DNA of 64,000 bases, from contig NZ_JAUHHF010000003.1 of assembly GCF_030410395.1 (NCBI RefSeq), forward strand, positions 124,001-188,000. The letters are read 5' to 3'. Both the position numbers and the translations under genes were made by a program. Under the pieces are notes generated by a model. The model made no database searches and had not been told where the DNA came from. It worked only from the letters and a program-made list of their open reading frames with translations. Of this stretch, positions 21,695 through 31,916 are shown piece by piece. Position 1 is the stretch's first letter, and each line of letters opens with the position of its first letter. This DNA is from Zwartia panacis. Its GTDB lineage: Bacteria; Pseudomonadota; Gammaproteobacteria; Burkholderiales; Burkholderiaceae_B.

Positions 21695-22666
21695 CTAATA
21701 CCGCTCCCGCATCCTCTCAATCATATCCCTCACCTTATCTCGCAGGGTCGGCGGAGCGATCACTTCAACATCGCTCCCCTGGCGCAAGATATCCTGGATC
21801 AACTCCCAGTCTTCGCCATAGGGGACTTCTAGTTGGTACGAGCCATCGGGCAACATGGTGCTCACCTGATCAGGATGCCAGATTTCATTGGCTACCCATT
21901 GTGCACGAAAGGGAGTGAACTTGAGCGTCGCAACCTGTCGTTGCTTGCCATTGAAAATGCCATAACTTGATTCAAACACTTCACGCAACGTCGCCGCATC
22001 GATCTCCTGCGCAGCCTCCTCAAGCAAATCCACCGAACGGAGTGCATCGACTGCAAAACTGCGAAGCCCTTCTCTCAAATGACAATATGCATCGAAATAC
22101 CAGTTGTCCCGGTAGTACACCAGATGCTGGGGCGAAACGGTCCGCTCGCTGACAGTACCCTCCTGGCGAGAGTAGTACTTGATCAGTAAACGTTTCCGAT
22201 TGATCAGAGCTTGCGCCAGTATTTGAAAATACTCGCTCACGACCTTGCGTTGTCCCATCGGGATGATGCGAATACGCGCTGAGGCTTCTTTGGCACTACC
22301 CGTCCCTTCATCTAGCAAGCCTTCCAACCTAGACTTAAAAGGCAAAATGTGCGGTGCCAATAACCCTCCAGGCTCGAGCTTAGAGATCATCTCCAGCATC
22401 GTCAGGACTGAGTGAATCTCTTGTTCGCTAAACCAGACACCCGGCAGCTCAAAAGTGCGTGCATTGCTGGGCTGCTGCGTCAGTGCATACCCACGCAAGC
22501 TTGAGTTCCAGGCAAATGGGATGCCAAGCCGATCACGCATGTACGCCAGATCACGATTGAGCGTTGCACGTGACACCTCGAGCGTCTCAAGCATCTGCCG
22601 CATCGTGACCGAGGGCTGGGCCATCAGCATCGTTTGAATCTTGTAAAAGCGTTCAGTGCGATCCAT
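21695..22666 (-). CDS. WYL-domain transcriptional regulator (YafY-like)
   Basis: About 323 residues from the ATG at 22666; GGAG lies four bases upstream, and a GTG six codons earlier is less likely. The N-terminal helix-turn-helix (TMRQMLETLEVSRATLNRDL) is followed by a WYL ligand-binding domain with RLLIKYYSRQEG, SPQHLVYYRDNWYFDAYC and the C-terminal LRQGSDVEVIAPP. Such proteins sense nucleic-acid or small ligands and often act near DNA-damage or phage-defence genes; nothing of that kind is adjacent here. Confidence 0.92.
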   Translation of the reverse strand: MDRTERFYKIQTMLMAQPSVTMRQMLETLEVSRATLNRDLAYMRDRLGIPFAWNSSLRGYALTQQPSNARTFELPGVWFSEQEIHSVLTMLEMISKLEPGGLLAPHILPFKSRLEGLLDEGTGSAKEASARIRIIPMGQRKVVSEYFQILAQALINRKRLLIKYYSRQEGTVSERTVSPQHLVYYRDNWYFDAYCHLREGLRSFAVDALRSVDLLEEAAQEIDAATLREVFESSYGIFNGKQRQVATLKFTPFRAQWVANEIWHPDQVSTMLPDGSYQLEVPYGEDWELIQDILRQGSDVEVIAPPTLRDKVRDMIERMRERY

Positions 22667-22743
22667 GAGGCTCCAATTCCACACGTACAGTTTGAAACCT
22701 AATTTACACGTTTACGGGTGCTCTTTTTTCAGTTTAGGCGTGA

Positions 22744-22782
22744 TTTAAAAAAAGAAAAAACAGTAGCATCCAGTGAGACACC
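22744..22782. repeat. Intergenic element copy 1 (A-rich lead, GCATCCAGTGAGACACC)
   Basis: An A-rich lead is followed by GCATCCAGTGAGACACC (22766-22782). Copy 2 at 25579-25614 has the same lead and GCATCTGATGAGACACC. Copy 3, inverted at 26537-26549, shares CACCCAGTGAGAC. All three lie in gaps around the Sel1-like, DUF3857 and lipoprotein genes. A regulator site or short dispersed repeat are both possible; the WYL regulator gene begins 78 bases from copy 1. Confidence 0.4.
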
Positions 22783-22790
22783 TCATTGGT

Positions 22791-23564
22791 TCAACATCTA
22801 ACAGCCACAGAACTCTTTCCGCCTCCGAGCTCAAACCTCACCCCCTCCGGACGTATTGTTGCTTCATATAGAAATACCTCTGCGGAGTTCTTGCTGCATT
22901 TCATGACGACACTCACCTGCTGCGGATTTTCAACAGTCATACCCATGGTTGAGCACATCATCTCCATCGGTTGAATGACTTCAAGCGCCTGAACTTCTAA
23001 TCCCATGAACTCTCCACCAAAAGCCTGACTCATTTCTCGAGTTTCCTGACAGGTCAGTCCCGGGACAGAAAACTTTCCCCGCAACTGCGCTGGTATCGTT
23101 CGTGCAGAGACTGGAGGTCTATTTTTTTCAAGGCTCTTTAAATTTTGAGTAGCCTCTGGAAAACCATACGTCGATGCATTTTGAAAAAGAACTTCGGCAA
23201 GATAAATGTTGCGAGCCACTCCCTTGCCGTCGCGATACAACTCACCTAAATTATTCAGCGCACCCAGATTGTTCAGGTCACTACCCTTGCGGTAGGCTTC
23301 GATCGCCTCTGTCACGTTATTCACTTTTTCCAGAGCGCGACCATATTGAAACCAGAGTTGCCCGTCTTTAGGGGCTACAGTCACTGCCGCCTTGCAGGCA
23401 GCCACTGCCTTGGCTCCGTCAAGCTTTGCATAAGGGACGCCCGGCCCTTTACGATCCGGATCAGCCGGAGAAGCAGCCAGTGCGTGACAGGCAGCGGGTT
23501 GCGCATGTGCAATATCTGACATCACAAGAAATGACGTCACAGCGGTGATTAGCAATGATTTCAT
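22791..23564 (-). CDS. Exported Sel1/TPR-repeat protein with unique C-terminal domain
   Basis: 257 residues from the ATG at 23564, where MKSLLITAVTSFLVMSDIAH is a signal peptide ending HAQ. Central Sel1-like repeats are seen in LWFQYGRALEKVNNVTEAIE and LGALNNLGELYRDGKGVARN. The last ~90 residues (after RTIPAQLRGKFSVPG) have two or three cysteines and hydrophobic strands, with no fold I recognise. The gene follows the DUF3857 protein gene after 64 bases, so the two are probably cotranscribed and both periplasmic. Confidence 0.8.
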   Translation of the reverse strand: MKSLLITAVTSFLVMSDIAHAQPAACHALAASPADPDRKGPGVPYAKLDGAKAVAACKAAVTVAPKDGQLWFQYGRALEKVNNVTEAIEAYRKGSDLNNLGALNNLGELYRDGKGVARNIYLAEVLFQNASTYGFPEATQNLKSLEKNRPPVSARTIPAQLRGKFSVPGLTCQETREMSQAFGGEFMGLEVQALEVIQPMEMMCSTMGMTVENPQQVSVVMKCSKNSAEVFLYEATIRPEGVRFELGGGKSSVAVRC

Positions 23565-23628
23565 ATTCAGGGTTCCATTGTTGTTAGAAATATTACCCTT
23601 AAATCGACAATGCTTTCCAAAAAAACAA

Positions 23629-25500
23629 TTAATCATAAAAAATCTGCGATCTCAAATCTCTTTGCACCACCGCATGTAACTTTCTAATCACTTGATAATC
23701 ATTCGGTTGGCAGACCATACTCGGGCGTTGCGCCTGAACGACGCGCTGAACCGTCAGGACTTGTCCGCGCAGGCGATATGTGGACTGATAAAGCAAACCC
23801 GACTCATCAAAAGCTGCATCCGCCGGTATTCGAGTGATCTTTGCCTCAGATGGAAACTCCACTTCATACGTTTCCTCATAACGATAGGACCGACACACAA
23901 ACGGAAACAACACTCGCTCTTTAGGTCGATTAAAGCTCAAACGATTGATAAAAGACGGCGTTAAACCTACAGGCACGCTGAGCGCCCCTGGTCCGGGAAA
24001 ATTAGCGACTGGATCGAGTGTGAAGCTGCCCCGATTGGTAAAAGGCGTATCCAAATCTCGAGCATCTGAGGGCGTGTAATGTCCCTCCCCCGACTGCCGA
24101 TTCGCAGACAAATTCGACTGCGCAAGCCTTTCCTTATACTCCCCCTCATGATCCATAAAGCTCAAGCGCGCACTGTAATCCGCATAACCCGCGTACTCCG
24201 AATACACCGTCCCTGTCATCTGACCATCGGCTTGAATCTGAATATGCGTGAGCGATTTGATCCAGTTGGTTAAGGCGTCAAGCTTGGGGGTGCGCCCCAG
24301 ACGATTCAGTGCAGTCAAGACAGTAGGCTTGTCCATGACACTGATTGGCAAAATACCAAAAGGCGCGAGCTCAGCCGTCGGATCAAGATACAGATCCCAT
24401 TGCGGGATATAGGTGATGACATGATTAAACGGGCTGATGGATCCTAAGCGCGGCATCTCATACGCGCTGCCTGAGTTGATCATCGCCGTCGAAGCTTCAA
24501 TCCCTTTTGCGGCAAGCAATGCAATCAAGAGCGTCGTCTTGTCCTTGCAATCGCCATAGCGATTGCGGATCACCTGGTCGGCAGGATTAGGCACCACACC
24601 GCCCGAGCCAAGAAATATCGCCACATAACGAATCTCTTTGGAGACCCAGTGATACAAGGCCGCGGCTTGCGCTTTTGGATCATGTATGCCAAAGGTTATC
24701 TCATCGGCCAGCTTCTGCACCTGCATCGTGACCGCTGTCTTGGGGGCCGCGGACTGCTCATACACCTGACCAACTGCCAAGGGGCTCACAAACGTAGATA
24801 AATGCAGATAGGGTCCGAAATCACTCGCCGAAACCTGACCACTCTCGGCGTGCTGGATCGCTGCCTGGCTATAGGTATAACGATAGCGTACCTCGCCATT
24901 AGGACTGTCAGACAGTCGACCACCCTCAAATCCACGACTATCCGCGAGAATGTGGATGGCAGGGTCATGCGAAATATTGAACTCTAGCTGACCATATTCA
25001 ACAGATGTCCCCAATGATCTGCGAAACATAAACTGTCTTGGAAAAAGTGGCGTATGCGTTTTACGCAGCACCGTTGAGTGCGCACGCGCTCCAACATTGA
25101 TCTTGGGAAAAATCACCACCTGAGTCTTGCGAGAGGTAAACATCGCCGCCCCCTCGGAGCGTTCTTCATCGACGACTCTGATCGCATCTGCCGCCACAGG
25201 GATTCGTTCACCCGAAGGCAGTTCGGTGAACGCCTCAAGCACCTCCACAGTCTGTCGGTCGCTGTAAAAGTCCACGTCATCCTGACTGACCAACTCAATC
25301 GCCGCTGGGGACTTAACCCGCGTGACACTCTCGATCTTCTCGTGAAAAGTACCGTCGGCCCGCACATGAATCGTGATGACCTGGCGCTCAATGGCATAGA
25401 GACTCTTGTGTGGCTCTTGGGTCTGAGCGTGCGCATGCATGGAAACAAAAAATAGCGCACAAACCGTTTGCAGAGTCAAAGCTTTAAACATGCCGTTCAC
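23629..25500 (-). CDS. Exported DUF3857/transglutaminase-like protein
   Basis: 623 residues with a signal peptide ending HAHAQ. DUF3857 (beta-sandwich) fills roughly 40-230. A transglutaminase-core domain follows: YHWVSKEIRYVAIFLGSGG, then NRYGDCKDKTTLLIALLAAK with catalytic Cys318, and NHVITYIPQWDLYLDPTAE with the His and Asp. The triad is complete, so enzymatic activity (peptide cleavage or crosslinking) is possible. The C-terminal ~200 residues are beta-rich. Proteins of this type act at the envelope; the substrate is unknown. Confidence 0.9.
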   Translation of the reverse strand: MNGMFKALTLQTVCALFFVSMHAHAQTQEPHKSLYAIERQVITIHVRADGTFHEKIESVTRVKSPAAIELVSQDDVDFYSDRQTVEVLEAFTELPSGERIPVAADAIRVVDEERSEGAAMFTSRKTQVVIFPKINVGARAHSTVLRKTHTPLFPRQFMFRRSLGTSVEYGQLEFNISHDPAIHILADSRGFEGGRLSDSPNGEVRYRYTYSQAAIQHAESGQVSASDFGPYLHLSTFVSPLAVGQVYEQSAAPKTAVTMQVQKLADEITFGIHDPKAQAAALYHWVSKEIRYVAIFLGSGGVVPNPADQVIRNRYGDCKDKTTLLIALLAAKGIEASTAMINSGSAYEMPRLGSISPFNHVITYIPQWDLYLDPTAELAPFGILPISVMDKPTVLTALNRLGRTPKLDALTNWIKSLTHIQIQADGQMTGTVYSEYAGYADYSARLSFMDHEGEYKERLAQSNLSANRQSGEGHYTPSDARDLDTPFTNRGSFTLDPVANFPGPGALSVPVGLTPSFINRLSFNRPKERVLFPFVCRSYRYEETYEVEFPSEAKITRIPADAAFDESGLLYQSTYRLRGQVLTVQRVVQAQRPSMVCQPNDYQVIRKLHAVVQRDLRSQIFYD

Positions 25501-25578
25501 ACCATTTATTCAATTGCAATACCTGCGACATCCACGATACACGTTTGCACCGATCTTTTGCCACTTTAAAAAAGATAT

Positions 25579-25614
25579 TTAAAAAGAAAACAAAGTCGCA
25601 TCTGATGAGACACC
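25579..25614. repeat. Intergenic element copy 2 (GCATCTGATGAGACACC)
   Basis: TTTAAAAAGAAAACAAAGTC followed by GCATCTGATGAGACACC (25598-25614). It lies in the 183-base gap between the divergent DUF3857 and lipoprotein genes and matches copy 1 (22744-22782) in both the A-rich lead and the GAGACACC core. A promoter element or protein-binding site shared by these genes would fit. Confidence 0.4.
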
Positions 25615-25683
25615 CGGCTGCTTAACCTAATACTTCGCACCCCAATTCCCTCCACACATCACAACAACAAGACAGGCAAAAAA

Positions 25684-26445
25684 ATGAGCATCTCCAGACT
25701 GTTATCCCTCTTGGCCATACTCGGGGCTTCGCTCCTGCTGGGCGGCTGCGCCTCTATTACTGGCGGCACACAACAAAGCGTATCCGTTGAAACCAGACAA
25801 GACACCGCTCAAGTATCCGGCGCAGCCTGTGAGTTGGTGAATGCAAAAGGTAAATGGTTTCTCACCTCCCCTGGCTCGGTTCAAATCCAACGCTCCAACG
25901 ATGACCTTCAGGTCACCTGTAACAAGGCCGGCCTCGAACCCGGACGAGCCTCCGTCACCTCGATCGTGAAACCGGGCATGGTAGGTAACTTTTTCTTTGG
26001 CGGAATCATCGGCGTCGCGATCGACCACGCATCGGGCGCAGCCTATGACTACCCCAACATGATTCAAGTCATGATGGGACAAATGACCAAAGTCGGCTAC
26101 ACCGAAGGACATGCGACAACACACACCACAGCTACGCCCGCCGGCTCTCCCTCAGGAGTTACAAAAACCAGCGTCACCCCTGCAGGCACCACGACTACCG
26201 AAACATTGACATTAACGCCAACAGGCACTGTCGCCAGTAGTACGGCCACCTCATCAGCCACCTCATCAGCCACCTCACCGGCCAGCGCGCCACAGGCGAC
26301 AGCTCCCCCAGCGAGTACCGCTGCAGCAGCCAATCCACCCGTCGCACCCGTTTCCCTCGATGCCGCCAAAAACCAATGCGTGGAGCTTGGCATCAGACCT
26401 CAGACCGAAGCCTTTGGACAGTGCGTGATGAGGATTGCGAAGTAG
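25684..26445 (+). CDS. Outer-membrane-type lipoprotein with Ser/Thr/Ala-rich linker
   Basis: 253 residues. The lipobox is LGGC in LLGGCASITGGTQQSV. Residues ~25-145 form a conserved-looking domain (VSGAACELVNAKGKWFLTSP, then DLQVTCNKAGLEPGRA) containing a glycine-rich hydrophobic stretch NFFFGGIIGVAIDHASGAAY. Residues ~150-225 are low-complexity Thr, Ser, Ala and Pro, including a short DNA repeat of CCACCTCATCAG units near 26248-26280. A small C-terminal piece with two cysteines follows. Binding partner and role are unknown. Confidence 0.82.
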   Translation: MSISRLLSLLAILGASLLLGGCASITGGTQQSVSVETRQDTAQVSGAACELVNAKGKWFLTSPGSVQIQRSNDDLQVTCNKAGLEPGRASVTSIVKPGMVGNFFFGGIIGVAIDHASGAAYDYPNMIQVMMGQMTKVGYTEGHATTHTTATPAGSPSGVTKTSVTPAGTTTTETLTLTPTGTVASSTATSSATSSATSPASAPQATAPPASTAAAANPPVAPVSLDAAKNQCVELGIRPQTEAFGQCVMRIAK

Positions 26446-26453
26446 TCAGCGCT

Positions 26454-26498
26454 TTAGCACTCTATCGCACACATCACTAAAGCCAGAGTCTTTTTCAT
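26454..26498 (-). pseudogene. 14-codon remnant of a secreted/lipoprotein gene start
   Basis: Read on the minus strand from 26498, an AGGAG six bases before the ATG leads into MKKTLALVMCAIEC and a stop. That is the start of a signal peptide of entericidin or small-lipoprotein type, cut off after 14 codons. It could be a decayed gene, or a short leader peptide. Just upstream, ATCTCC (26504-26509) and GGAGAT (26516-26521) can form a hairpin that would cover the ribosome site. Confidence 0.35.
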
Positions 26499-26536
26499 GT
26501 TGGATCTCCTGTTTTGGAGATGATGCGCGACTTACT

Positions 26537-26549
26537 GTCTCACTGGGTG
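26537..26549. repeat. Intergenic element copy 3, inverted
   Basis: Read on the minus strand this is CACCCAGTGAGAC, close to the core of copies 1 and 2 (CATCCAGTGAGACACC and CATCTGATGAGACACC). It lacks the A-rich lead. It sits in the 170-base gap between the lipoprotein gene and the end of the enolase-superfamily gene. Being short, chance similarity is not excluded. Confidence 0.3.
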
Positions 26550-26615
26550 ACACAAACTGCAGCACACCCATTTCAAAATCACATAAAAGACTACCGCGAT
26601 GCGAGATTTAGCTAT

Positions 26616-27758
26616 TTAAACGTAGCACGGACCTTCAATCAAAGGATGTGACTTGATGAAGTCCATATCCAGCGTTAAGCCATAACCTACACCTTCTGGA
26701 GGAGAAACACATCCGTTTGAGTCCAATTTATAAGCGACTTGACCCGCAAGATGGTCTCTAAAAGGATTTAATCCAGTGACATCGCCTTCGAAATAACCGG
26801 GATTATCCACGCCGCATAACAAATGCAAACTACAAGCCATATTGATTGCTGTTGCTGATGTATGTGGGTTAACAGTCAATTTTTTTGCACCTGCCATTGC
26901 TGCTATACGCATTGTTTCCGTTATGCCACCTGTTTTAGATAAATCAGGCTGAAGATAACGCACGCAATTGTCTTCAATCAGCGTATCGAATTCGTAACGA
27001 GTGTAGTGATTCTCTCCTGCAGCCAAGGGAACATTGCTCATCTTTGCCAATGTTGCGTAAGCATGACGATCCTGAGGTGGAAATGGCTCCTCAAGCCAGG
27101 CAACCTGAGCTTCAGCAAATGCTGGCAGCACTCTAGCCGCAGCCTCCAGCGTGTAATTTGTATTTGCGTCTGTCAGGATCTCAATATCATCTCCAACAGC
27201 CTTACGCACAGCCTGTACTCTCGCGATATCCTTCTTGGGTGTATCGCCCATTCGTAGCTTCAGCGCTCGATAGCCATCACTGATATAACCAAGCGCCTCC
27301 TGAACCAAACTCTCTGGCTCTTGCCAACCCAGAGCAATGCCGCCCGCATAGGCTTTGATCGGTTTCGAGGTGCCACCTAACATCCGATAAAGAGGTTGAT
27401 TCGCTTGTTGACAGCGGATGTCCCAAAGAGCTTGGTCAAGTCCACTTAATGCCAAAACGGCAGCAGCGCCCATGCCATGGCTTGCAATCTGCATTTTATA
27501 GACGCGCGCCCATACTCCGTTCACGTCTGTCGCATCCATTCCCAACACCAATTCAGACAGTGTTGTATCAATGAGCTTGGCAATTGCGCCCGGACAACGC
27601 CCGTGATGTGATTCGCCCCAACCGGTCAATCCCTCGTCAGTATCGACTCGTATCAAGACAGCATCACGCTTGACACTACGTCCGATACCCAATGTGACTG
27701 ATTTGTTGGCGGGTACAGGGAAAGAGATTGGAACTGCTTGTATACGTGTGATTTTCAT
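26616..27758 (-). CDS. Mandelate racemase/muconate-lactonizing enzyme family protein (copy A)
   Basis: 380 residues of the enolase superfamily. The N-terminal capping domain has VDTDEGLTGWGESHHG. The barrel shows ALKLRMG (Lys-x-Arg in place of Lys-x-Lys), the metal ligands TDANTNYT, WLEEPF and AGENHYTR, and NPHTSATAIN with the general-base His. The family dehydrates or racemises sugar acids and related hydroxyacids. It is the last gene of the GntR-linked cluster, seven bases after the 2-hydroxyacid dehydrogenase gene. Confidence 0.9.
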   Translation of the reverse strand: MKITRIQAVPISFPVPANKSVTLGIGRSVKRDAVLIRVDTDEGLTGWGESHHGRCPGAIAKLIDTTLSELVLGMDATDVNGVWARVYKMQIASHGMGAAAVLALSGLDQALWDIRCQQANQPLYRMLGGTSKPIKAYAGGIALGWQEPESLVQEALGYISDGYRALKLRMGDTPKKDIARVQAVRKAVGDDIEILTDANTNYTLEAAARVLPAFAEAQVAWLEEPFPPQDRHAYATLAKMSNVPLAAGENHYTRYEFDTLIEDNCVRYLQPDLSKTGGITETMRIAAMAGAKKLTVNPHTSATAINMACSLHLLCGVDNPGYFEGDVTGLNPFRDHLAGQVAYKLDSNGCVSPPEGVGYGLTLDMDFIKSHPLIEGPCYV

Positions 27759-27764
27759 TTGAAA

Positions 27765-28733
27765 TTAGTCCTTAAATACTTCAGGATTGACAACATTTTT
27801 GGGGCGTTCATTTTTTAATAACGCCAACATTGTCTGAACTGCACCCTCACTCGTCACGAAAGAGCTACTTTCCGTGATGCCTGCACAATGAGGCGTCAAC
27901 ATCAAATTAAGACAATCAAAAATTTGCTCTGTACCCGTCAGAGGCTGCTTATCGAACACATCCAGTAAAGCGCCGCCCAAACGCCCCTCTCGAAGGGCAA
28001 TCACCAACGCATCCGTATCAACGACTGGACCGCGCGACACATTAATCAAAATCGCACGTTTTTTCATCGTGGCGATTGTGCTGTGGTCGACAAGATTTCT
28101 GGTTTGATCAGTTAAAGGACAGGCCAAGACAACAGCATCGGACTGAGCAAATAACAATTCCTTATCCGCAGCAATCACACCCTTAGGCAATGTTTCAGGA
28201 CGACGTGTCAGGCCAAGAACTTTCATGCCGAGGCCTTGCGCCATCGAGGCGATCAATGAACCGATTGATCCTACGCCGACAATGCCTAAGGTGCTCGCTC
28301 CGAGCTCCAAATAATGATCGGCTGCGGGCCGAGCTTTAGACCAGCCATCTTTTCTCAGTGAAGCATCCATTCCTGCCAAGTTGCGTCTTAAAGCAAGCAT
28401 GCCAGCGATGCAATACTCCGCGACCGCTTGAGAATTACAACCGGGTAAATTCGCGACCGCTATCTTTTTTTCTGTGGCAGCCGGAACCGGAATCATATCC
28501 AGACCCACTCCGTGTCGCACAACTGCGCGCGTCAAGGGAGCATCTTCAAAGATGTCAGGAGGCAATTGATTTCTAACAATGACACCATGAACATCTCGAA
28601 TGAGTCGCTTGTAGGTCGAGGCTTGGGTGTCAGGTGCAATCACTATGTCGCATTGTGATGCTAATAAAGCCTGCATATCCGGGTGGATAGGGCTAGTTAG
28701 CAATACTCGAGCGCGCGGATTATTGTGCTTCAA
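27765..28733 (-). CDS. D-2-hydroxyacid dehydrogenase (phosphoglycerate-dehydrogenase-like)
   Basis: 322 residues. Reduces a 2-keto acid or oxidises a D-2-hydroxyacid with NAD(H). ASTLGIVGVGSIGSLIASMA is the nucleotide-binding motif; INVSRGPVVDTDALVIALRE carries the catalytic Arg, and LMLTPHCAGITESS the catalytic His. The ATG lies 14 bases inside the end of the upstream fumarylacetoacetate-hydrolase-like gene, so the two are coupled. It may act on the keto acid produced by the dehydratases of this cluster. Confidence 0.92.
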   Translation of the reverse strand: MKHNNPRARVLLTSPIHPDMQALLASQCDIVIAPDTQASTYKRLIRDVHGVIVRNQLPPDIFEDAPLTRAVVRHGVGLDMIPVPAATEKKIAVANLPGCNSQAVAEYCIAGMLALRRNLAGMDASLRKDGWSKARPAADHYLELGASTLGIVGVGSIGSLIASMAQGLGMKVLGLTRRPETLPKGVIAADKELLFAQSDAVVLACPLTDQTRNLVDHSTIATMKKRAILINVSRGPVVDTDALVIALREGRLGGALLDVFDKQPLTGTEQIFDCLNLMLTPHCAGITESSSFVTSEGAVQTMLALLKNERPKNVVNPEVFKD

Positions 28734-29649
28734 AGAACGGCACTCCTTTTTTTATTGGATTGACCAACTGTCCTAATCCCTCCAAAGAGACTGTTACCTG
28801 TTGTCCAGGCAAAAGCCAAGCCTGAGGTGAGTGCGTTGAAGCCCCACCTCCCGGAGTTCCGGTGGCGATCACATCGCCTGGTTCCAGTGGAAAGCGATGG
28901 GAAATCCACGAAATGAGTTGAGGAATACGAAAAACCATATTTTCCGTGGAGCCATCTTGAAGCAAACGGCCATCAACCTCTAGTTTGATTCTGATTCGAT
29001 GCGGATCCACAATCTCATCTGGAGTAGCAATCCATGGTCCCAGCGGAGCTGTAGCAGGTAAATTCTTGCCACGCAGAAAATTCCCTCTATCCCGTTTGAG
29101 TAAACCTGATCCACTTACATCATTGTGAATGGTGTATCCAGCCACAAAGCCCATCGCCTCGGATTCTGAGACACATATAGCCCGGCGTCCTATGATGGCA
29201 GCAAGTTCGCCCTCGTAAGCCACATCACCCACATCAGGCGGAATCAGTATCGGCTCATTCGGACCGATGACCGTTTGCCCAGAACGAAAGAAAACGACAG
29301 GTTCAGCTGGTGGTGGCATACCTCTTTCAGCTAAAGCATCGCGAAAGTTAAATGCTGCACCCATGACTTTTCCTGGCCTTTGTAACGGAGCGAGGAGTTG
29401 TGCTGAATTCAGCTGCACAAGCGCTTCATTGGAAAAACTATAGGATTGAATACGTGACTGCCAAACAAGCAAGCCCGCCTCGATCATCGCAAGCAGACAC
29501 GCAGGGGTAGAACCCATCAGATCAACACACGCTTCGTGTCCCAAATCCAGAATCTGATCTGTATCAGGCAAGAGCACGCCAGCGCGAGGGATCATCGCAT
29601 GTTTACCAGCACCACCACCAGATTTCAAAACAAAGGTAACAAACCGCAT
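28720..29649 (-). CDS. Fumarylacetoacetate-hydrolase family protein
   Basis: 309 residues from MRFVTFVLKS (29649); an ATG two codons earlier is possible. The C-terminal FAH domain shows YEGELAAIIGRRA, GYTIHNDVSGSGLLKRDRGN, RGKNLPATAPLGPWI and PLEPGDVIATGTPGG, with metal-binding Glu and Asp residues. Family members are hydrolases, decarboxylases or hydratases of 2-keto and 2,4-dioxo acids. In this cluster, action on a 2-keto-3-deoxy sugar acid is a reasonable guess. Confidence 0.9.
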   Translation of the reverse strand: MRFVTFVLKSGGGAGKHAMIPRAGVLLPDTDQILDLGHEACVDLMGSTPACLLAMIEAGLLVWQSRIQSYSFSNEALVQLNSAQLLAPLQRPGKVMGAAFNFRDALAERGMPPPAEPVVFFRSGQTVIGPNEPILIPPDVGDVAYEGELAAIIGRRAICVSESEAMGFVAGYTIHNDVSGSGLLKRDRGNFLRGKNLPATAPLGPWIATPDEIVDPHRIRIKLEVDGRLLQDGSTENMVFRIPQLISWISHRFPLEPGDVIATGTPGGGASTHSPQAWLLPGQQVTVSLEGLGQLVNPIKKGVPFFEAQ

Positions 29650-29694
29650 AAACAATATCCTTGGGGCTTATAAAAAATTGAGATGCCTGTGTAT

Positions 29695-30837
29695 TTAGGC
29701 AACGCGATACTTGTTCAATATTTCGCGATTAATCTCAATTCCTAATCCCGGACCTGTTGGAATTTGAACAACACCTTTGTTTTGAACGATTGGTTCGACA
29801 GACAAATAGTCACGGAAAGGATTTTCACATTGCTCAAACTCTAGCAATGGAGGAAAGGGTCGGTAGCTTGGTGGCTGGTCAGGCAACGCACCTAAAAAAT
29901 GCAAGGTTGCGGCTAGGCCAATCGCAGAGCCCCAAGCGTGCGGCACACACTCAACACCATGTGCACTGGCCAATGTCGCAATCTTGCGGCATTCGCTGAT
30001 CCCTCCTGCAGCGCATACATCCGGCTGAATAATATCCATGGCCTTTCGAACAACGATATCTCTGAATCCCCAGCGAGTAAATTCATTTTCACCCCCGGCT
30101 ACAGCCATATCCAAAGCCCTAGTTACTTCGACATAGCCATCAAGATCCTCTGGCGAAATAGGCTCCTCGAACCACTCTACACCCAGTTTTTCAAGTTCTC
30201 TGCCCAGACGGATAGCCTGCGGAACCGTAAAACAATGATTTGCATCCACCATCAGACGAGCTTTATCTCCAAGTGCTTGGCGGACGGCAGCCACACGCTC
30301 GATATCAAGCTTCATATCCCCTAGTCCGATTTTCATCTTGATCGCGGTGAAACCCTCTTCTTGATATCCCTGCGCTTCTTCAACAGCCTCCTCGATCAAT
30401 CTATTCATATCAATGAAATAGAGTCCCGTGGCATAACAATTCACCTCTGTTCGGAAAGAACCCCCGATCAGCTTATGAATAGGTTTACCCACTGACTTGC
30501 CAATGATGTCCCATAGCGCAATGTCAATGCCACTCATTGCACTGGTCACCATCCCTTTTCCGCCATAATCTTTGATACGGTTATAGAGATATTCCCAAAT
30601 CACCTCGACATCAAACGCATCGCGCCCGATGATATGGGGTGCTAACTGCGTTTCAATGAATGCGCGTGCAACTTGAGAAGGCCCATAACACTCACCCCAA
30701 CCAACGATGCCATCGTTGGTCTCAATTTCGACAATACAAGATCCTCGCGTCTTATAAAGCCACCCTCTGGACGAAGTGAAAGGGCGCTCGACTGGGGCCG
30801 CTACGACATGACAAGTCACTTTTTTAATAATACTCAT
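29695..30837 (-). CDS. Mandelate racemase/muconate-lactonizing enzyme family protein (copy B)
   Basis: 380 residues. GWLYKTRGSCIVEIETNDGI and GWGECYGPS lie in the capping domain. The barrel has AIKMKIGLGD with the Lys-x-Lys base, metal ligands MVDANHCF, WFEEPISPEDL and GGENEFTR, and CVPHAWGSAIGL with the His. The catalytic set resembles D-galactonate or galactarolactone-type dehydratases/cycloisomerases. It differs from copy A in the Lys/Arg position, so the two probably have different substrates or stereochemistry. Confidence 0.91.
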   Translation of the reverse strand: MSIIKKVTCHVVAAPVERPFTSSRGWLYKTRGSCIVEIETNDGIVGWGECYGPSQVARAFIETQLAPHIIGRDAFDVEVIWEYLYNRIKDYGGKGMVTSAMSGIDIALWDIIGKSVGKPIHKLIGGSFRTEVNCYATGLYFIDMNRLIEEAVEEAQGYQEEGFTAIKMKIGLGDMKLDIERVAAVRQALGDKARLMVDANHCFTVPQAIRLGRELEKLGVEWFEEPISPEDLDGYVEVTRALDMAVAGGENEFTRWGFRDIVVRKAMDIIQPDVCAAGGISECRKIATLASAHGVECVPHAWGSAIGLAATLHFLGALPDQPPSYRPFPPLLEFEQCENPFRDYLSVEPIVQNKGVVQIPTGPGLGIEINREILNKYRVA

Positions 30838-30879
30838 GAGTTCTTTTTTTCCGTGATTGGTTCTAAATTCTGTGTCAAT

Positions 30880-31869
30880 TTATTTCTTTTGATTGGCGAA
30901 TACTTTTTCCCCAACCTCCACGAGAGCCGCCGTCACTCCAACAACCTCTTTGTTCAGGGCTTCTCCAGTTAGATTGTCGACCACGGCACTGCCCTCGGCC
31001 GACAGTTTCTTAAATCGTTCGCTCTGAATTGCTTCGCTGAACATCGCAATCAAACGATCTTGAACGGCCTGTGGAGTTTTTGCTGGAGCGACCAAGTAAG
31101 CCATCTGGACGAGAGGTCCATAAGGAAACACGTCATAGCCCTTGGACTTGAAAGTTGGAACATCTGGCATCGCCTGTAAAGGCTCATTGGCAAATACACC
31201 CAGTGCCCGCACAAGCTTGCCATCAATTTGCGCCTTACTCTCCGAAGGCTTGAGGACTGCTGCATTAATCTGACCACCTGCCAGATCTGCAATCACGCGT
31301 GATCCGCCTGTGTAAGGCGCCACAATGATCTCGCTCCCCGCAATACGGCCGGTCATGAGAGCAAAGATATGATTCAAATTATTGCTGCCAGGTGTACCAA
31401 TCGATACTTTGCCCGGGTTCTTTTTAACAAATGCGATAAATTCATCCAGATTTTTATATGGACTGTTGTAGGGCACTAAAAGCAGCAGAGGATCGGTTGT
31501 GACTCTTGCGATTGAGGCAAACTCACTATTTCGCAAGGGAGTCAGGTTTTGAGCAATCAATGCCAAGGTTGAACTCGTCCCCATGCCAATTGTGTAACCA
31601 TCTGGCTCTGCCCTGGCGACTCGTGTCATACCGATTGATCCTGTCGCGCCTGGTACGTTTTCCACCACAACCCTGATTCCCTTCTCGCCGAGAATGCTCG
31701 ACAAGGCTCGCGCAGAAATATCATTTGAGCCACCCGCATTCCATGGCACGATCAGACGAATCTCTCTGCTCGGAAAAGTATTTTGCGCAAGAACAGGTGC
31801 CGCAACGGTCAGTGCAACCAATGATCCGACTAACGAACGGGCAATGCGTGAAAAGATGTTCTGTTTCAT
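30880..31869 (-). CDS. TctC/Bug-family periplasmic solute receptor
   Basis: About 329 residues from the ATG at 31869, giving signal peptide KQNIFSRIARSLVGSLVAL ending VLAQ; the AGGAG upstream lies inside the longer frame from 31890. EIRLIVPWNAGGSNDISARA is the carboxylate loop, then VENVPGATGSIGMTRVARAE and IVAPYTGGSRVIADLAGGQI. It is the first gene of the sugar-acid-type cluster, so its ligand is probably that acid (inference). Confidence 0.92.
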   Translation of the reverse strand: MKQNIFSRIARSLVGSLVALTVAAPVLAQNTFPSREIRLIVPWNAGGSNDISARALSSILGEKGIRVVVENVPGATGSIGMTRVARAEPDGYTIGMGTSSTLALIAQNLTPLRNSEFASIARVTTDPLLLLVPYNSPYKNLDEFIAFVKKNPGKVSIGTPGSNNLNHIFALMTGRIAGSEIIVAPYTGGSRVIADLAGGQINAAVLKPSESKAQIDGKLVRALGVFANEPLQAMPDVPTFKSKGYDVFPYGPLVQMAYLVAPAKTPQAVQDRLIAMFSEAIQSERFKKLSAEGSAVVDNLTGEALNKEVVGVTAALVEVGEKVFANQKK

Positions 31870-31916
31870 TCCAGCTGTCTCCTGATTCATGAAATTAAAT
31901 TTCTCTATTTGTTATT

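Follow-up and report, generated by a model that had tools for sequence, protein, structure and literature searches.

Three copies of a related short element stand in the intergenic DNA around the Sel1-like, DUF3857 and lipoprotein genes of a 64,000-nucleotide stretch of the Zwartia panacis genome (NCBI RefSeq assembly GCF_030410395.1, contig NZ_JAUHHF010000003.1, positions 124,001 to 188,000; hereafter ‘the window’), next to a gene encoding a WYL-domain regulator. What are these copies: a common operator, perhaps of the neighbouring WYL protein, or a small mobile repeat – the two possibilities raised by a sequence-only reading of the window? Our computational analysis indicates that the three sites are quite probably operators of the WYL regulator, whichever the sign of its action, binding being predicted: conserved sites upstream of WYL genes, the co-occurrence of site and WYL gene among genomes and the preferred distance at which a −10-like hexamer follows all support the operator.

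Three near-palindromic sites share one register

All three look-alike copies are present at the positions that the sequence-only reading gave for them (Table 1) and fall into one common register, in which the site is a 21-bp near-palindrome of the form GTGTCTCA-N5-TGAGACAC. We derived a pattern from the two direct copies and allowed up to two mismatches: it matched the window twice and none of 100 shuffles twice, the matched copies being those on which the pattern was built. The short core TGAGACACC, allowing one mismatch, was not clearly enriched in the window (17 matches against 11.5 expected, with six shuffles reaching 17); the signal resides in the longer site. Scored with a matrix built from relatives’ sites and the window copies, sites 1–3 are the top matches of the window (25.7, 25.0 and 22.4), and the sole further match above 12 is site 3 read on the opposite strand.

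The A-rich lead said to be common to the first two copies was likewise borne out: 78 nt can be aligned with a score of 39 (shuffle maximum 28). As sites 1 and 2 share this promoter segment of approximately 78 nt, they are likely to stem from its local duplication. The alignment of site 3 to sites 1 and 2 does not rise above chance (23 against 25 and 18 against 26, respectively, in shuffles); what ties it to them is the common register and the sites of relatives.

Table 1. Coordinates of the sites and associated features, numbered from the first nucleotide of the window.
Feature	Position	Strand	Remarks
WYL regulator gene, 323 aa from the conserved ATG; HTH, WYL and WCX	21695..22666	−	predicted to bind the sites
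Promoter segment, A-rich lead ending in site 1	22705..22782	+	alignable to the site 2 segment
Site 1, near-palindrome	22761..22781	+	CAGTAGCATC-C-AGTGAGACAC; centre 22771; between the Sel1-like and WYL genes
Site 1, copy GCATCCAGTGAGACACC	22766-22782	+	
Promoter segment, A-rich lead ending in site 2	25538..25614	+	alignable to the site 1 segment
Site 2, near-palindrome	25593..25613	+	AAGTCGCATC-T-GATGAGACAC; centre 25603; precedes the lipoprotein gene
Site 2, copy GCATCTGATGAGACACC	25598-25614	+	
−10-like hexamer TAACCT	25623..25628	+	starts 20 nt from the centre of site 2
Lipoprotein gene, 253 aa, no Pfam family	25684..26445	+	putative target of site 2
14-codon remnant of a secreted repeat-protein gene	26454..26498	−	putative former target of site 3
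−10-like hexamer CATCAT	26520..26525	−	starts 20 nt from the centre of site 3
Site 3, near-palindrome	26535..26555	−	TTGTGTCACC-C-AGTGAGACAG; centre 26545
Site 3, copy: complement of CACCCAGTGAGAC, i.e. GTCTCACTGGGTG	26537-26549	−	

The site recurs upstream of WYL genes

In related Alcaligenaceae (Zwartia, Jezberella and metagenome-assembled genomes) the site recurs upstream of WYL orthologues, for example as AGTATCACCTGGTGAGCCAG, and on this ground we rejected a chance match. A matrix trained on the three window copies only detects it, at a score of at least 13, in 15 of 27 distinct WYL upstream regions, the window’s own included (i.e. in 14 of 26 others), as compared to 0.13 of 27 in shuffles (maximum 2); moving the threshold from 10 to 14 takes the count from 20 to 13 WYL upstream regions, against 1.8 to 0.07 in shuffles. 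In relatives with a site near the WYL start the palindrome centre lies approximately 80–107 nt upstream of that start, the distance for site 1 being 105 nt. One locus with stops in its translation (L041) was left out of the WYL-locus alignment. Genome G173 carries two tandem WYL genes with a site upstream of each (L099, 7525-8589 and 9981-10955) and a third WYL gene in L143. Three loci (L049, L063 and L064) are on contigs that are close to the Alcaligenaceae metagenome-assembled genomes and are titled Bordetella parapertussis, possibly through mislabelling.

Within the genus, GTNKCAYCNRGTGAGNCA at up to one mismatch yielded 137 matches in 32 genomes, against 26 for the reversed pattern, and 12 of the 22 exact matches lie within 10 kb of a WYL gene. 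Using TGTCTCAYCNRGTGAGACA at up to two mismatches, we found a site in 20 of the 24 genus members that have the WYL gene and in three of the eight in which none was detected; at the level of the family, 30 of the 41 genomes of two genera with a WYL orthologue of at least 60% identity had such a site, as compared to 20 of 227 others. The strict 20-mer GTGTCTCAYCNRGTGAGACA, at one mismatch, was found in 5 of 268 genomes, all of them in the two genera, and is too strict to show the pattern.

The order is taken to be Burkholderiales, to which Zwartia belongs; 123 of the 349 genomes drawn from it have WYL orthologues (E ≤ 1e-50), and the order-wide form of the operator is GGCTCA-N5-TGAGCC. Exact GGCTCAYNNNRTGAGCC occurs at 166 places in 85 of the 349 genomes (the reversed pattern at 21 places), namely in 69 of the 123 genomes with WYL and 16 of the 226 without (p = 6e-24), corresponding to densities of 1.20 and 0.084 sites per genome, respectively. 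After subtraction of the 30 WYL genomes that had been seen before the pattern was chosen, the counts are 51 of 93 and 16 of 226 (p = 8e-20). Of 35 loci sampled order-wide, 10 lacked a clear start codon and were not counted; GNCTCA-N5-TGAGNC (at least nine of ten core bases) is located upstream of 14 of the remaining 25 WYL genes, with 0.15 in shuffles, and upstream of 13 of 21 in other families, the former figure counting four loci of the same family. On plasmid 2 of Variovorax sp. SRS16, GTGGCTCATAGCGTGAGCCAC is centred 49 nt upstream of the WYL start.

The site covers the −35 position

Among 30 non-redundant sites of the two genera, 15 have a −10-like hexamer, nAnnnT, that starts 20 nt away from the palindrome centre; the other offsets have a mean of 2.1 and a maximum of 7, at +19. 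For this count other genera were left out and similar flanks merged, which reduced 64 sites to 45 clusters, 30 of them scoring at least 20. The order-wide count used 76 distinct exact sites, from the 166 places in 85 genomes, each read both ways: 51 of the 151 readings have the hexamer starting at +19 and 23 have it at +20, the other offsets having a mean of 5.8 and a maximum of 14. The hexamer thus tends to start 19–20 nt from the palindrome centre and therefore the site lies over the −35 position, with its centre at approximately −31 to −32 if the hexamer occupies −12 to −7. This is the arrangement of DriD-type promoters, in which a pseudo-palindrome overlies the −35 and keeps a preferred distance to a weak −10, and by analogy to DriD we lean towards the WYL regulator acting as an activator from over the −35.

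Genes preceded by the site in Z. panacis

Orthologues of the lipoprotein gene that follows site 2 are found in five of the 32 genomes searched, and in three of them (G000, G144 and G159) the site is in front of the gene; in G144 and G159 it is followed by TAAGCT and TACTCT, respectively, at +20. The orthologues in G165 and G171 (49 and 45% identical) have no site match above 14 in front of them.

Two convergent genes flank site 3 with their 3′ ends. Downstream of the site on the minus strand come CATCAT at +20, a ribosome-binding site and an ATG, whose frame is closed by a stop codon after 14 codons. Both this leader and the start can be aligned with intact secreted repeat-protein genes in L103, L104, L105 and L093 (scores of 103, 72, 81 and 78, respectively; shuffle maxima 24–26) and, weakly, with L036 (40 against 34), and the leaders of the relatives’ secreted-protein genes have CATCAT or CAACAT at the +20 spacing. 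The inverted repeat ATCTCC/GGAGAT, with a 6-base spacer (26504-26521), lies over the ribosome-binding site of the remnant gene and is kept in relatives; in G086 (L036) the stem is altered and, by eye, still paired. We considered and rejected a hairpin covering the ribosome site of the gene for the secreted protein: most of its 5′ arm is untranscribed if the −10 is right. Next to site 3, at 26616-31890, we read two putative enolase-superfamily genes and putative genes for a 2-hydroxyacid dehydrogenase, a fumarylacetoacetase-like protein and a Bug-type binding protein.

The better half and the A-rich lead of site 1 point to the plus strand, away from the WYL gene; the +20 hexamer on this strand is TCAACA, and CAACAT is found at +21. 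The gene order – DUF3857, Sel1-like, site 1, WYL – matches that of G144 (DUF3857, site, WYL), with site 1 turned opposite to the G144 site and carrying the lead of the lipoprotein promoter. Site 1 may be a duplicated piece of promoter that doubles as the WYL site. The Sel1-like gene (22791-23636) has TPR matches only, which are below the Pfam cut-offs.

Genes preceded by the site in relatives

Within the genus, the site precedes a YbjN-like gene, recC (G163), the secreted-protein gene, the lipoprotein gene and the WYL gene itself; on the other side of the YbjN-like gene’s site is a divergent NERD-helicase gene, which is not shown to be a target. In other families the target of each of the 73 phased readings was taken to be the longest open reading frame (ORF) starting 30–220 nt downstream. 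This rule left 15 of the 73 readings without an ORF of 100 aa; the 58 targets of that length or longer fall into 38 groups. One of the groups is WYL itself (5 targets); the other 37, comprising 53 targets, were scanned against Pfam by one representative each, plus both RecC proteins. Ten of these 37 groups, with 21 of the 53 targets, are of DNA repair, DNA metabolism or defence: RmuC (3), Cas3 (3; type I-C by PADLOC), another Cas3 (1), an MrfA-type helicase (3), an SNF2 helicase (3), a SprT-like protein (2; below the cut-off), RecC (2), a methylase matching type III restriction-modification systems (2), SbcD (1) and ribonucleotide reductase (1). For seven groups the family is another one or the match is weak (MerR twice, NUDIX, PKD, DUF1376, YfbR-like and a transposase zinc ribbon). 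HsdM follows a site in L239, outside the range of the rule. Ten ORFs at distances above 1.5 kb from a site served as control, and a family was assigned to five of them: two glycosyltransferases, an epimerase, a Fic protein and an exonuclease. A DNA-repair and phage-defence regulon in relatives is, judging from these predicted targets, fairly likely, and since the relatives’ sites front such genes, the site may mark a yet undescribed stress-response gene set. In L254–L258, proteins of 317–371 aa (the representative has no Pfam match) are preceded by the site with CAAACT or CACACT at +20; this group adjoins WYL in four of the five loci.

The WYL regulator

While the listed ORF of the WYL gene starts with GTG at 22684, the alignment of relatives (MDRTERF) sets the start at the ATG at 22666. 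The protein has HTH, WYL and WCX in the order of a WYL-domain factor, the latter two being above the cut-off and HTH_11 below it (E 2.2e-4; 21.5 bits, cut-off 25). Its best PDB matches by sequence are PafBC (6sj9) and then, among others, DriD. We treat the fold search as supporting only, because the AlphaFold model is of low confidence (predicted template modelling score, pTM, 0.43). A search of the Z. panacis genome that used this protein as the sole query gave one match at E ≤ 1e-20.

All 42 distinct readable sequences (repeats merged; three loci without a motif match) have the second arginine of the motif R-x-F/W-R-x-D-R replaced by A, S or G and the third by A, S, T or G; the first is kept. 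Because the second and third arginines are replaced, the ligand, or the way it is gripped, may differ from the single-stranded DNA sensing of the PafBC type.

A MerR gene and a VIT/von Willebrand A protein lie beside the WYL locus in several relatives (L104, 7532-10299; L099, 2049-4873). We rejected the site as a MerR operator: MerR has no match at E ≤ 1e-25 in G000, G144, G026 and G086, all of which have sites and WYL and among which is the genome of the window.

Probable operators of the WYL regulator and alternative explanations

We propose that a dimer of the HTH-WYL-WCX protein would bind the 21-bp near-palindrome, which would cover the −35 of promoters that have a weak −10 only, and that the bound protein most likely recruits RNA polymerase, as described for DriD. 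Few genes would be served in this genome: the lipoprotein gene by site 2, a secreted-protein gene, now decayed, by site 3 and the WYL region by site 1. Relatives would use this operator for WYL and for several DNA-repair and phage-defence genes, the signal presumably being DNA damage or infection.

Several observations weigh against this proposal. At a score of at least 13 with the three-copy matrix, 12 of the 26 other WYL upstream regions have no site, and neither do 11 of the 25 sampled order-wide, the GNCTCA core used for the latter having been picked after part of the same loci had been seen. In the nearest relatives (L045–L047, WYL 78–79% identical), the best match is 335–385 nt from WYL and fronts the preceding gene; one of the three reaches 13 and two fall below it (12.6). 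The association of site and WYL is weak within the genus (p = 0.023), with a site in three of the eight WYL-less members, and the counts by genome take genomes singly and are not phylogenetically independent. Site 1 has no −10-like hexamer at +20 in the direction of WYL, and its better half faces away. The +20 spacing was first spotted by eye in part of the data later counted, and the fresh order-wide data peak at +19, with +20 second. Of the 37 target groups, 20 have no Pfam family, some of them probably being spurious ORFs, and target function was set against a small control (10 of 13 qualifying ORFs scanned) with an unmatched background. Finally, the usual WYL arginines are absent.

Could the WYL protein bind the sites and repress by covering the −35, to be released by a ligand? 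This explanation, which overlaps with ours, is rather unlikely in our estimate. A site over the −35 could block the polymerase, and BrxR, a WYL protein, represses defence genes (PMC9122601, excerpts); however, the BrxR repeats lie downstream of the predicted −10 according to the same excerpts, and a palindrome at the −35 with only a weak −10 is what is seen in DriD-activated promoters. That a different conserved regulator binds the palindrome, the WYL gene being one of its targets, we hold to be improbable: while sites are present in the three genus members without a detected WYL and in the 16 order genomes without it, and some WYL genes have no site, this account is at odds with the order-wide co-occurrence of site and WYL, and MerR, the sole alternative tested, was not found in four genomes with sites.

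We hold it highly improbable that the sites have no regulatory role and represent a small mobile repeat or a recent local duplication, even though the approximately 78 nt common to sites 1 and 2 would suit this reading. At up to three mismatches, the pattern of the sequence-only reading has 106 matches in the genome against 40 for the reversed control, an unexplained excess that would fit a repeat and makes the picture less clean. Many dispersed copies with common ends were, however, not found in the genome: there is no third copy of this pattern within one mismatch, different targets have little in common beyond the palindrome, and shared flanks are seen for sites 1 and 2 only. GTNKCAYCNRGTGAGNCA, at up to one mismatch, has five matches in the genome (reversed control, one), namely sites 1 and 3 exactly, site 2 with one mismatch and two elsewhere, of which one (C50) is within an ORF and the other (C22) scores below 15.5; among the 30 loose-match loci listed, a score above 16 was reached by sites 1–3 only. 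Moreover, sites occupy matching places before orthologous genes in other genomes, and the conserved sites upstream of WYL orthologues, in the family and order-wide, make a repeat or duplication unlikely.

Returning to activation by the WYL protein, we consider marginally probable a fuller account: a Burkholderiales regulon apart from the classical SOS response, in which one WYL activator would use GGCTCA-N5-TGAGCC in place of the −35 before recC, sbcD, rmuC and ribonucleotide reductase, helicase, cas3 and restriction-modification genes; having lost two of three pocket arginines, it would sense another signal or sense in another mode; and in the lineage of the window the regulon would have shrunk to an envelope lipoprotein and remnants. 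If true, the palindrome and its phased −10 would be a readable genomic address of a stress and phage-defence regulon in many Burkholderiales, its regulator would be named and jointly switched-on repair and defence operons would be predicted. Furthermore, with a WYL clade devoid of the arginines thought to read single-stranded DNA, the question of the WYL ligand would become directly testable.

Comparison with known WYL systems

Among the matches listed, we found no description of this operator or regulon in the open-licence literature, and no match listed for the two half-sites concerned the subject. WYL proteins that act on defence genes include the repressor CapW. BrxR resembles the system described here in being a WYL regulator that is tied to phage defence and has inverted repeats, but differs in repressing, with the repeat position noted above (PMC9122601, excerpts; ‘burkholderi’ is absent from the main text of that paper). 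SiwR of Mycobacterium smegmatis is, according to excerpts of PMC10693628, a WYL activator whose target promoter contains an imperfect palindrome of 19 bp; unlike the palindromes studied here, centred at approximately −32, the SiwR site is between the −35 and the −10 (the −26 region).

The mycobacterial PafBC, the top PDB match by sequence, is a WYL activator of a DNA-damage response and consists of two WYL proteins that form a heterodimer (PMC11804915, excerpts). The same excerpts report that single-stranded DNA was no longer bound once two arginines had been changed in the WYL domains of both proteins or of PafB, whereas changing those of PafC by itself did not have this effect; in the WYL protein of the window only the first arginine of this pair is left.

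DriD of Caulobacter crescentus (PDB 8tp8, 9pfq) is a modest sequence match (E about 1e-8, over the WYL-WCX part). We do not assign the WYL protein as a DriD orthologue because the operator differs (ATACGAC-N7-GTCGTAT in the excerpted DriD literature, GNCTCA-N5-TGAGNC here) and because a ligand feature is absent here, namely the arginines that DriD retains in RSWRLDR. The likeness is one of design: both are HTH-WYL-WCX proteins; the excerpted DriD targets include recJ and dnaG; and DriD uses a pseudo-palindrome of approximately 20 bp with the −35 at the site centre and a constant distance from a weak −10 (PMC12340889, a preprint, excerpts), just as the palindromes described here lie over the −35 with a favoured spacing to a weak −10.

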